DNA of 64,000 bases, taken from contig NZ_JACHLY010000001.1 of the NCBI RefSeq assembly GCF_014204715.1, forward strand, positions 1,302,001-1,366,000, in the 5' to 3' direction. Numbering within the stretch: the first letter of the stretch is position 1; every line of letters begins with the position of its first letter. The notes under the pieces were generated by a model that saw nothing but the letters and a program-made list of their open reading frames with translations, was not told the origin of the DNA and searched no databases. This DNA comes from Streptomonospora salina. Lineage in GTDB: Bacteria; Actinomycetota; Actinomycetes; Streptosporangiales; Streptosporangiaceae. Below are positions 7,124 through 49,086 of this stretch, in pieces. Made by a program: the position numbers and the translations under genes.

Positions 7124-8716
7124 TCAGTCCTGCGGGTAGCCCTGGCGCAGCAGGCCGTAGGACATCGCGTCCTTGAGCGCGATCCAGGAGGCGTCGATGA
7201 CGTTCTCCCCGACCCCGACCGTGGTCCACTCGCCGCGGCCGTCGCCGAAGGTCACCAGGATGCGGGTGACCGCGCCGGTACCGGAGTTGCCTTCGAGGAT
7301 GCGCACCTTGTAATCGGTCAGCTCCAACCCCGCCAGCGCCGTGTAGACGCCTTCCATCGCGCTGCGCAGCGCCCGGTCCAGCGCGTTGACCGGACCGTTG
7401 CCTTCGGCGGTGGCGATCACGCGCTCGCCCTTGACCTGCAGCTTCACGGTGGCTTCGCTGACCGCCTCGCCGGCGCGGTCGCCGCCGCGGCGCTCAGAGA
7501 TCACCCGCCAGGACTCGGCCTCGAAGTAGCGCACCGGGCTGTCCAGCTCCTCGCGCAGCAGCAGCTCCAGGGACGCGTCGGCCGCCTCGAAGCTGTAGCC
7601 GCTCTGCTCCAGCTCCTTGATCCGGTCCACCAGCCGCCCCAGCAGTTCGCGGTCGCCGGACAGGTCGAAGCCCAGTTCCCGGGCCTTGAGCTCGATGGAG
7701 GCGCGCCCGGCCATGTCCGAGACCAGCATCCGCATGTCGTTGCCCACCAGCGCCGGGTCGGTGTGCTGGTAGAGGTCGGGGTCGACCTTGATGGCCGAGG
7801 CGTGCAGCCCGGCCTTGTGCGCGAAGGCCGAGATCCCCACGTAGGGCTGGTGGGTCGACGGCGAGATGTTGACGATCTCGGCGACGGCCTGGGAAACGCG
7901 GGTCATCCGCGCCAGGCAGCCTTCCGGGAGGACGTCGCGGCCCTGCTTCAGCGCCAGCGCCCCCACGACCGAGAACAGGTTGGCGTTGCCCACCCGCTCG
8001 CCGTAGCCGTTGGCGGTGCACTGCACGTGCGTGGCGCCGGCTTCGACGGCGGCCAGCGTGTTGGCCACGGCGCAGCCGGTGTCGTCCTGAGCGTGGATGC
8101 CCAGCCGCGCGCCGGAGGCCGCGGCGACCTCGCCGACGATGCGGGTGATGTCGGCGGGCAGCATCCCGCCGTTGGTGTCGCAGAGCACGACGACGTCGAC
8201 GCCGGCCTCGGCGGCGGCGCGCACGACGCTGACGGCGTAGTCGGGGTCGTAGAGGTAGCCGTCGAAGAAGTGCTCGCAGTCGAGGAAGACGCGCCTTCCG
8301 TGCTCGCGCAGATGGCCGACGGTGTCGGCGATCATCGCGAGGTTCTCCTCACCGGTGGTGCGCAGCGCGCGCTCCACGTGGCGGATGTCGCTTTTGGCGA
8401 CCAGGGTGACCACGGGAGCGCCCGAGTCGCGCAGCGCGGCGACCTGAGGGTCGTCGGCCGCCTGCACGCCCGCCCGGCGGGTCGCGCCGAACGCGCACAG
8501 CTGCGCGTGCTCCAGGTCGAGCTCGTGTGAAGCCCGCTGGAAGAACTCGGTGTCCTTGGGGTTCGCCCCCGGCCATCCGCCTTCGATGAAGCGCACGCCG
8601 AACTCGTCGAGCAGCGAGGCGATGGCGAGCTTGTCGGCGACGGTCAGGTTGACGCCCTCGCGCTGGGCCCCGTCGCGCAGCGTCGTGTCGAAGACGTGGA
8701 AACTGTCGTCAGGCAT
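7124..8716 (-). CDS. cimA: Citramalate synthase
   Basis: A 530-residue DRE-TIM metallolyase of the LeuA/CimA class. It begins FHVFDTTLRDGAQREGVNLT, with the metal-binding DTTLRDG, and contains GGWPGANPKD, FLDCEHFFDGYLYDP, LCDTNGGMLP and GIHAQDDTGCAVAN (the H-x-(H/Q)-D-D loop). The C-terminal part (from about 390) is the regulatory dimerisation domain. GGWPGANPKD and the HAQDD loop separate the CimA group from LeuA. The enzyme condenses acetyl-CoA with pyruvate to (R)-citramalate, giving a threonine-independent route to 2-oxobutyrate and isoleucine. Upstream lie an Ile-codon leader peptide, a terminator hairpin and a palindromic operator (8771-8934), so attenuation by isoleucine is predicted. 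Downstream in pathway order are ilvB/N/C, leuB and ilvE, all in this window. Confidence 0.93.
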   Translation of the reverse strand: MPDDSFHVFDTTLRDGAQREGVNLTVADKLAIASLLDEFGVRFIEGGWPGANPKDTEFFQRASHELDLEHAQLCAFGATRRAGVQAADDPQVAALRDSGAPVVTLVAKSDIRHVERALRTTGEENLAMIADTVGHLREHGRRVFLDCEHFFDGYLYDPDYAVSVVRAAAEAGVDVVVLCDTNGGMLPADITRIVGEVAAASGARLGIHAQDDTGCAVANTLAAVEAGATHVQCTANGYGERVGNANLFSVVGALALKQGRDVLPEGCLARMTRVSQAVAEIVNISPSTHQPYVGISAFAHKAGLHASAIKVDPDLYQHTDPALVGNDMRMLVSDMAGRASIELKARELGFDLSGDRELLGRLVDRIKELEQSGYSFEAADASLELLLREELDSPVRYFEAESWRVISERRGGDRAGEAVSEATVKLQVKGERVIATAEGNGPVNALDRALRSAMEGVYTALAGLELTDYKVRILEGNSGTGAVTRILVTFGDGRGEWTTVGVGENVIDASWIALKDAMSYGLLRQGYPQD

Positions 8717-8770: not shown

Positions 8771-8800
8771 AAAAAAGACCCCTCGTGGACACGAGAGGTC
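8771..8800 (-). terminator. Attenuator terminator in the cimA leader
   Basis: On the minus strand, GACCTCTCGT and ACGAGGGGTC form a 10-bp stem with a GTCC loop (8777-8800), followed by six T (8771-8776). It lies 54 nt upstream of the cimA ATG, so it would stop transcription before the gene. An upstream 11-bp hairpin pairs 8827-8837 with 8801-8811. A GACCCC stretch in the loop of that hairpin could instead pair with GGGGTC of the terminator and act as antiterminator. Confidence 0.85.
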
Positions 8801-8823
8801 GGCGCGCTGGCGGGGGTCCGTTT

Positions 8824-8865
8824 TCAGCCAGCGCGCCTCACGATAATGATCACCTGAGACGGCAC
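8824..8865 (-). CDS. cimA leader peptide (Ile-rich)
   Basis: A very short frame upstream of the cimA attenuator. From the GTG at 8853 it reads MIIIVRRAG and stops. From an in-frame GTG at 8865 it reads MPSQVIIIVRRAG. Three consecutive Ile codons (ATC ATT ATC) and a Val codon are the control codons expected for branched-chain attenuation. The following codons, from AGG through GGC, form the first arm of an 11-bp hairpin (8827-8837 with 8801-8811), and the stop codon lies in its loop. Ribosomes stalled at Ile codons would block that hairpin. Neither start has a strong Shine-Dalgarno sequence, so the exact start is open. It is analogous to the ilvB leader at 17724. Confidence 0.75.
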   Translation of the reverse strand: MPSQVIIIVRRAG

Positions 8866-8917
8866 GTTCGCCAGTCTGCCACAGGTGCGCGCCGGAGTCC
8901 GAATAATCGACAGATAC

Positions 8918-17621: not shown

Positions 17622-17669
17622 CACAAGATCCTTCGGAGAGGGCTCGTCGTCGGGAGGTGCTTGAGCAAC

Positions 17670-17702
17670 AAAAAACCCCCCACCGCCAGTGCGGTTGGAG
17701 GG
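17670..17702 (-). terminator. Attenuator terminator in the ilvB leader
   Basis: On the minus strand, CCTCCAACCGC and GCGGTGGGGGG form a stem with one mismatch and an ACTG loop, followed by six T (17670-17675). It lies 48 nt before the ilvB start. A preceding hairpin pairs 17731-17739 with 17704-17712, and its first arm overlaps the end of the leader peptide. Confidence 0.85.
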
Positions 17703-17723
17703 CGCGCGCAGCAGGAGACTCGG

Positions 17724-17777
17724 TCAGCTGGCTGCGCGCCGACCAAGTACGAGAATGAAGAAGAAGTCGCTCTGCAC
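17724..17777 (-). CDS. ilvB leader peptide
   Basis: A 17-residue frame, MQSDFFFILVLGRRAAS, starts at a GTG at 17777 and stops at 17724. The run Ile-Leu-Val-Leu (ATT CTC GTA CTT) supplies all three branched-chain control codons. The codons for RRA form the first arm of a 9-bp hairpin, as in the cimA leader. Ribosome stalling under branched-chain starvation should block that arm and favour read-through into ilvBNC. Leaders of this kind are known upstream of ilvB in actinobacteria. The assignment here is from sequence alone. Confidence 0.85.
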   Translation of the reverse strand: MQSDFFFILVLGRRAAS

Positions 17778-48772: not shown

Positions 48773-48887
48773 AGGACGTCCCTTCGCAGTCGGCGCGAGG
48801 GAGACCAGGCCAAGAGCGCCGGCCCGGCTCCGCGTGCCCCGCGTCGAACGGGATACACGGCCGCGCCGAACCGGCGGACGGGTTCAC

Positions 48888-48974
48888 GACTCCCTGCGCT
48901 GGCATTACCCAGATCAGGTGTGTGAGGGTCTGCGGTCGCGGCCGCACTCTCAGCGCCTCAGCGCTCCCCTGTCG
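48888..48974 (-). promoter_or_regulatory. TPP riboswitch (thi box)
   Basis: On the minus strand the conserved thi-box parts appear in order: ACAGGGGAGC, GCTGAGAGTGCGG, GCAGACCCTCA, CACCTGATCTGGGTAATGCC and AGCGCAGGGAG. CTGAGAG and CTGATCTGGGTAAT are the pyrimidine-sensor and pyrophosphate-sensor cores. It ends about 115 nt before ykoE. When TPP binds, expression of ykoEDC should fall. The expression platform is not resolved. Confidence 0.95.
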
Positions 48975-49086
48975 GTTTCGCCTCCATTATGGGGACCGGT
49001 GCATGCCGGGGGTCAAGGCGGGCCGGGCCCGCGCAGCCCGCACGGCCGCCGGACCCGCCGGACCCGCCGCTGCCGCCGCCGGTTCC

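Follow-up and report, generated by a model that had tools for sequence, protein, structure and literature searches.

Which signal sets the expression of cimA, the gene for citramalate synthase, in Streptomonospora salina? The window, i.e., the whole 64,000-nt stretch of DNA that was analysed, carries a branched-chain locus on its minus strand comprising ilvB, ilvC, serA, leuB, ilvE, and cimA (ilvC and serA were named by eye, leuB and ilvE by NCBIfam). The cimA product contains the Pfam domains HMGL-like and LeuA_dimer. A leader and a candidate attenuator element lie in the 332-bp intergenic space between ilvE and cimA, with the T-run of the element ending 54 nt before the cimA start codon (Table 1).

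Table 1. Features of the cimA and ilvB regions in window coordinates; here and in the text, leader peptides are written as far as their stop codon.
Feature	Position	Strand	Basis or remark
cimA, citramalate synthase, 530 aa, putatively regulated gene	7124..8716	-	TIGR00977, 621.7 bits (cut-off 450)
Terminator U-tract, T6	8771..8776	-	
Intrinsic terminator hairpin P2, 10 bp, loop GTCC, adjoins P1 without a gap	8777..8800	-	Fold, terminator pattern scan, covariation; arm GACCTCTCGT (8800-8791) pairs with ACGAGGGGTC (8786-8777)
Hairpin P1, 11 bp, overlaps leader codons 10-13	8801..8837	-	Fold and covariation; arm GGCGCGCTGGC (8837-8827) pairs with GCCAGCGCGCC (8811-8801)
GACCCC in the P1 loop, candidate antiterminator strand	8813..8818	-	Partner GGGGTC 8777-8782; complementarity p 0.03
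Leader peptide ORF MPSQVIIIVRRAG, 13 codons and stop	8824..8865	-	GTG 8865 to TGA 8824
Regulatory Ile codons ATC ATT ATC (putative)	8842..8850	-	Distance to P1: first codon 13 nt, last codon 7 nt
Extended -10-like box TGTGGCAGACT	8873..8883	-	7 nt 5' of the leader start codon; predicts a leaderless leader transcript
ilvB	17624-15858	-	TIGR00118
ilvB leader and putative attenuator (VQSDFFFILVLGRRAAS, P1, abutting P2, T-run)	17669..17777	-	Covariance model R1, 29.5 bits, E 1.2e-5

A sequence-only reading of this space had described a short frame with Ile codons, an 11-bp hairpin on its 3' codons and a 10-bp terminator stem followed by six T, and all of these are present on the minus strand at the positions given in Table 1. 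From 8865 to 8824, the codons of the leader frame are GTG CCG TCT CAG GTG ATC ATT ATC GTG AGG CGC GCT GGC TGA. We took GTG 8865 as the start because the start codon of relatives keeps a fixed distance to an extended -10-like box. This box emerged from the comparison of relatives, a sigma-70 promoter scan of the window element having returned none; it reads TGTGnCAnACT, and 136 of 165 leaders have it (score ≥6) 6-9 nt upstream of their start codon. Its position is as expected for leaderless leaders, and the transcription start site is predicted accordingly from the sequence. The fold energy has a z-score of -4.13 against dinucleotide shuffles, 2 of 200 of which were equally good. None of 4227 Rfam models reached its gathering threshold upstream of cimA, the top score being 18.9 bits against a cut-off of 50. 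Elsewhere in the window, Rfam identified a TPP riboswitch (48874-48980, minus strand, 64.8 bits) and three tRNA genes clustered at 1675-2036 on the minus strand.

The comparison across genomes comprised 181 regions upstream of cimA. One is that of the window; 80 are named loci, which are the best of one genome scan and come mainly from Streptomyces and Nocardiopsis relatives; and 100 were fetched after being hand-picked for spread out of 222 other genomes with a cimA match. Four of the 181 duplicate another region, so that 177 are distinct. A leader with II or I.I and a downstream terminator was found in 165 of the 181 cimA upstreams (161 of the 177 distinct ones) and under 22 of 27 family labels. 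The same combination occurred in 0 of 4000 random genomic windows, drawn from the DNA of the window and of the named loci, in 0 of 905 mononucleotide shuffles and in 0 of 181 reverse complements. Since 165 of 181 cimA upstreams stand against 0 of 4000 random windows, its presence before cimA is beyond chance.

The 16 misses fall into three groups. Five named Streptomyces loci (L024, L035, L059, L062, and L073) have MIMG or MITG replacing MIIG, and four regions (L147, L168, L170, and L171) have a single-Ile leader with both P1 and P2 present. No such element was found in the remaining seven, namely L143, L164, L179, L150, L157, L160, and L173; the last four are cimA regions of family f19, where the element is missing in 4 of 4. 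Trained on 35 cimA elements, the covariance model R1 matched 93 of 100 sources (the window and L082-L180), and its misses are the seven regions without the element. In the genome of the window, R1 matched only cimA (80 bits) and, as second-best, the ilvB leader at E < 0.1. The element thus has the end-product codon run, and the terminator between leader ORF and gene, of ribosome-mediated attenuators in the broad sense. In aligning the cimA upstream regions, as the sequence-only reading had proposed, we found Ile codons conserved in most regions and compensatory changes in both stems; its view of cimA as an attenuator target gains from the conservation of leader and terminator with cimA in most of the class sampled.

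The leaders, as called, are 8 to 24 codons long (median 14), and their residues are mostly variable, the Ile run being the exception. There are 2.3 Ile codons per leader on average, in total 238 ATT and 139 ATC. Other branched-chain codons occur as well (0.94 Leu and 0.62 Val per leader), for example in the GLLIIG of part of family f1. The leader had been read as Ile-only; this holds for the run common to the families, and not for the leader as a whole, since Leu and Val codons also occur. Downstream of the Ile codon(s), the frame differs in 6 of the 80 named loci (L014, L028, L044, L062, L077, and L081), as in a tail ending GSSAPVRSGH that replaces one ending GSRRAGPQ. P2 is kept in all six of them and P1 was parsed in five, L062 lying outside that set. 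Because the frame changes while P2 and P1 stay, it is the codons and the RNA that are conserved, and the tail of the peptide is not.

Covariation supports both stems. Among 35 hand-picked sequences (43 listed minus L093, L104, L128, L146, L151, L153, L163, and L177, mostly with a long or bulged P1 or near duplicates), 94.9% of the pairs were formed and two-sided changes occupied 66 cells, compared with 20.5 in shuffles. With 92 distinct model-aligned rows, taken from 95 R1 matches including the window ilvB leader and a short antisense match in L165, the figures were 97.9% paired and 162 cells compared with 44.5, in an alignment that leans towards the model. Both-sided changes occur at 12 of the 20 P1 and P2 pairs, and sliding the partners by 1-3 columns reduced pairing from 97.9% to 38-56%. 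The four basal P1 pairs, GCGC:GCGC (window 8836-8833 with 8805-8802; columns 15-18 with 91-95 of alignment A2), show the same sequence in 91-92 of 92 rows, an invariance that, to judge from the alignment, goes beyond what pairing alone explains.

The position of the Ile codons relative to P1 is equally constrained. Geometry was determined for 149 of the 165 elements; the other 16 folds (14 named loci, L121, and L126) were not separable into P1 and P2. From the last Ile codon to P1 the distance is 4-11 nt, with 147 of 149 elements at 6-11 nt; counted from the first Ile codon of the run, it is 8-17 nt, and 10-15 nt in 147 elements. The stop codon, in contrast, varies from 23 nt inside P1 to 5 nt 5' of it. 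P1 and P2 are separated by 0 nt in 140 of the 149 and by ≤2 nt in all. Hairpins abut in 164 of 165 cimA elements; among unrelated terminators in this GC-rich DNA, 6 of 28 show the same arrangement. The cimA elements have the codon run about 8 nt 5' of P1 and the abutting P2 of actinobacterial ilvB-type P1/P2 attenuators.

The front edge of a ribosome lies about 12 nt past the first base of the A-site codon. With this front edge, a ribosome placed on the first Ile codon leaves P1 with ≥80% of its energy in 147 of 149 elements, and one on the last Ile codon in just 57; in the latter position of the ribosome, mean P1 energy changes from -27.7 to -20.2. A ribosome on the stop codon leaves ≥80% in 1 of 149 and <30% in 102, and weakens P1 in 148. 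For either placement of the stop codon, the position of the ribosome would thus decide P1 folding: a stall at the first Ile codon would leave P1 intact, whereas a ribosome at the stop codon would largely or wholly abolish it.

On this comparative evidence, isoleucine sensing and premature termination at the cimA leader are highly likely, and the element probably adjusts cimA expression to how much isoleucine tRNA is charged, as a transcription attenuator that works through the ribosome. RNA polymerase would begin at the leader start codon with a ribosome trailing behind. When isoleucine is ample, the ribosome would proceed to the stop codon and cover the 5' arm of P1, P2 would form, and transcription would end. 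When isoleucine is scarce, the ribosome would stall at the first Ile codon with its front edge just 5' of P1, P1 would fold, and polymerase would read through. We lean towards this polarity, in which a stall leads to P1 and P1 to read-through into cimA. It agrees with M. tuberculosis ilvB1, where, according to the available part of PMC13236596, the change of LVVI to AAAA gives low, uninduced expression. Against it stands the ribosome on the last rather than the first Ile codon, which keeps 80% of P1 in only the 57 of 149 elements counted above.

Textbook attenuators use an antiterminator helix that competes with the terminator, and we searched for one in representatives hand-picked as one or a few per family. 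In 31 cimA representatives, pairing to the P2 5' arm gained -2.8 kcal/mol when the ribosome stalled at the last Ile codon and -0.5 when it stalled at the first; the corresponding shuffles gave -3.1 (mean p 0.50) and -3.3 (mean p 0.94, 0 of 31 below 0.05). An antiterminator formed by freed RNA and the P2 5' arm was rejected, as it did not rise above shuffles at either Ile stall and cognate partners did no better than exchanged ones. E. coli K-12 thrL and leuL, which like cimA have an end-product codon run, a terminator, and control by ribosome position, served as controls. In the same test, with three stall codons for each, thrL gained -13.7 (p 0.01) at two of them; leuL gained -8.4 (p 0.04) at one and -6.2 (p 0.10) at another, although neither leader gave a signal at the stall codon nearest the terminator. 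The competing helix of thrL and leuL at some stall codons thus has no counterpart in these cimA representatives, and the sequence-sharing antiterminator exposed by a stall, which marks classical trp/thr/leu attenuators, was not found among them.

Classical attenuation could take another form, in which a stall frees the P1 loop so that GACCCC there binds the P2 3' arm at GGGGTC; this is the pairing that the sequence-only reading had put forward as antiterminator. The complementarity is real in the window, where it is stronger than in shuffles, and such pairing reached p < 0.1 in 13 of 38 sequences with the window's P2 type, 15 of which contain GACCCC. A pairing of the P1 loop with the right shoulder of P2 has moreover been proposed for Corynebacterium ilvB-II, which in the accessible text of PMC10272879 resembles the cimA element in having P1 and P2, a uORF over P1, a U-tract after P2, and covariation, and differs in its mixed I/L/V codons. 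Unlike in that proposal, the pairing is not conserved in the cimA set. Across 33 representatives it was no better than shuffles (mean p 0.49), GACCCC is present in just 17 of 65 family-f1/Nocardiopsaceae sequences, and none of the 26 sequences with the CTCACG P2 type reached p < 0.1. In several families (L145, L161, L172, and L176) P1 loops of 3-5 nt leave no room for it, and the 6-bp pairing would need to displace a local 10-bp stem. The GACCCC pairing may be a local variant in some Nocardiopsaceae. As a general antiterminator, P1 loop with P2 3' arm was rejected as lineage-restricted at best, and we consider classical attenuation of this form unlikely.

Another motif pair in these loops, GGAC in the P1 loop (window 8819-8816) and GTCC in the P2 loop (8790-8787), co-occurs in 60 of 65 f1/Nocardiopsaceae sequences as scored, the L134 row having used a shortened stretch with a later Ile codon taken as the last. 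A loop-loop contact is possible, and nothing is built on it here.

P1 might instead act as a pause or protector hairpin like trp 1:2, melted by the stall so that its freed 3' arm briefly occupies the P2 5' arm. P1 does lose energy under a ribosome at the last Ile codon, as described above, and the P1 3' end can often form a weak GCG..CGC mini-hairpin with the P2 5' arm (mean rank 0.38 against P2-arm shuffles, n = 38). However, the mini-hairpin averages -2.4 compared with -1.9 in shuffles, cognate pairs are not above exchanged partners, and P1 is masked far more by a ribosome at the stop codon than by one stalled at Ile. We therefore see little room for a protector function, and return to the attenuator in which P1 promotes read-through.

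How P1 might do so is considerably less certain than the polarity itself. Because P1 folding depends on the stall and P1 abuts P2, P1 could hinder P2. In the step that we tentatively favour, the closed base of P1 and the closed base of P2 would exclude each other, and a P1 without a linker would hinder completion of P2 at the RNA exit channel. Several results argue against the proposed attenuator, this step included. The folding tests yielded no antiterminator, and P2 was part of the minimum-energy fold in 39 of 39 sequences shown, even with the P1 base masked, with P1 and P2 coexisting. From equilibrium folding alone, termination would be expected in every state, since P2 is in all 39 folds. 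Abutting hairpins, finally, are also found at the 6 of 28 unrelated terminators. The missing textbook antiterminator may in turn explain why Streptomyces ilvB leaders misfit classical attenuation.

A constitutive terminator or 5' processing element that does not respond to isoleucine, with the Ile codons as a relic, is a less likely alternative still. In its favour, and against the attenuator reading, codon replacement in the S. coelicolor ilvB leader is reported to be without regulatory effect (as recounted in PMC1262725). The attenuator reading must also accommodate family f19, whose four cimA regions lack the element. A constitutive element is at odds with the conservation, in 22 families, of the Ile run and of its spacing from P1, in leaders whose other residues and stop position vary. 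Where the same design precedes other genes, its codons moreover match the gene (Ile/Leu/Val at ilvB, Leu at leuA and leuS). A T-box or another RNA that binds a ligand or tRNA would likewise be a conserved structure 5' of an amino-acid gene, as would an RNA bound by a protein; either is scarcely credible given just two simple hairpins with variable loops and the sub-threshold Rfam score. If the ribosome-mediated mechanism operates as we infer, the citramalate (threonine-independent) entry into isoleucine would be under direct isoleucine-tRNA control in a class that includes the main antibiotic producers.

Attenuators of this kind are known from ilvB. In the portions available of PMC8079986 (S. 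lividans ilvL), PMC13236596 (M. tuberculosis ilvB1), and PMC1262725, the actinobacterial ilvB attenuators likewise combine a leader ORF of branched-chain codons with a terminator; the cimA leaders differ in that the run they share is Ile, and in that cimA belongs to the citramalate route and ilvB to the common ilv pathway. For M. tuberculosis ilvB1, a terminated leader RNA of about 120 nt and ribosome occupancy of the uORF are reported, along with the proposal that the antiterminator is blocked when a ribosome sits at the stop codon (PMC13236596, in part). In S. lividans most leader peptides are reported to be leaderless, and the accessible table of eight leaders is without cimA (PMC8079986). 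In a comparative study of Actinobacteria, the attenuators treated are those of trp, cys, ilvB, leuA, leuS, and ileS, and cimA is not named in its accessible text (PMC1262725). That source also describes, as far as available, a leuA LEU element and ileS T-boxes, which like the cimA element are RNA control of branched-chain genes; they are described at the Shine-Dalgarno box without a terminator, whereas cimA has an intrinsic terminator.

The sequence-only reading had also stated that it knew of no description of an Ile-only leader as end-product sensor for cimA. Our search on citramalate synthase or cimA attenuation and leader peptides, which mostly did not extend to subscription papers, found no description, in keeping with that statement. 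The gene treated in the second of the two papers cited next is presumably S. coelicolor cimA. The available text of PMC12452182 contains nothing on such a cimA leader, and that of PMC13033682 nothing on such a leader.

The same architecture recurs before other genes. At E 0.01, R1 gave at least one match in 120 of 158 class genomes and 43 of 90 phylum genomes. We viewed 40 other R1 matches, 20 each from the class and the phylum search and among the better-scoring ones; many of them precede other branched-chain genes, with codons fitting the gene (no gene assignment was reached for some, among them L193, L221, L227, and L232). In the window itself, the ilvB leader, a match of the cimA model, resembles that of cimA in having a codon run followed by P1 and an abutting terminator. 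Elsewhere, ilvB leaders of this design read LVVG, ILVVMQRAG, and LLVVLGQRAG. Those before leuS are LLLTGPR and LLLGRPR (leuS by TIGR00396 in L202 and L204), those before leuA LLLT and MKHLLLIESARH (leuA by TIGR00973 in L206), and that before leuB is VVIIR (leuB by NF002898 in L228). In one genome outside the class, cimA itself has a leader of the same design, MSASIIIIA (TIGR00977 in L231).

In family f19, three genomes (L199, L200, and L205) carry MGIT or MAIT leaders with P1 and P2 before a threonine ammonia-lyase-like gene, a label based on best models below their cut-offs; the proteins of L199 and L205 are 90% and 71% identical to that of L200. In these three genomes an Ile-Thr leader thus stands at the threonine route, in a family where all four cimA regions are without the element. 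Family f13 supplied two of the leuA cases, and its three genomes that were listed gave no cimA match. Of the 33 non-cimA leaders, 19 were measurable for geometry: the last putative regulatory codon lies 6-9 nt 5' of P1 in 14, and the P1-P2 gap is 0-1 nt in 16.

These leaders could, as a still speculative generalization, belong to one Actinomycetota-wide class, in which P1 would act as an antiterminator that has no sequence in common with the terminator, would fold only when the ribosome is stalled or absent and, with no linker in between, would keep the abutting terminator stem from closing at the RNA exit channel, with the codons exchanged per gene. Read in this way, the codons would be Ile for cimA, Ile/Leu/Val for ilvB, Leu for leuA and leuS, Val-Ile for leuB, and Ile(-Thr) for the threonine ammonia-lyase-like gene. 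If the mechanism is as inferred, one compact leader design has been reused, with its codons swapped, for at least six kinds of gene.

Two further observations were made among the viewed matches. Genome G206 (L193, oriented 150-227) has a second Ile leader, MFTPRIII, with P1 and P2 before an orphan 103-aa ORF, for which no Pfam match was found. Unlike the LEU element described for leuA, the Leu-run leaders before leuA in L196, L206, L215, and L233 (LLLT, HLLLIE.., and LLLL) come with an intrinsic terminator, in the same P1 and P2 design.
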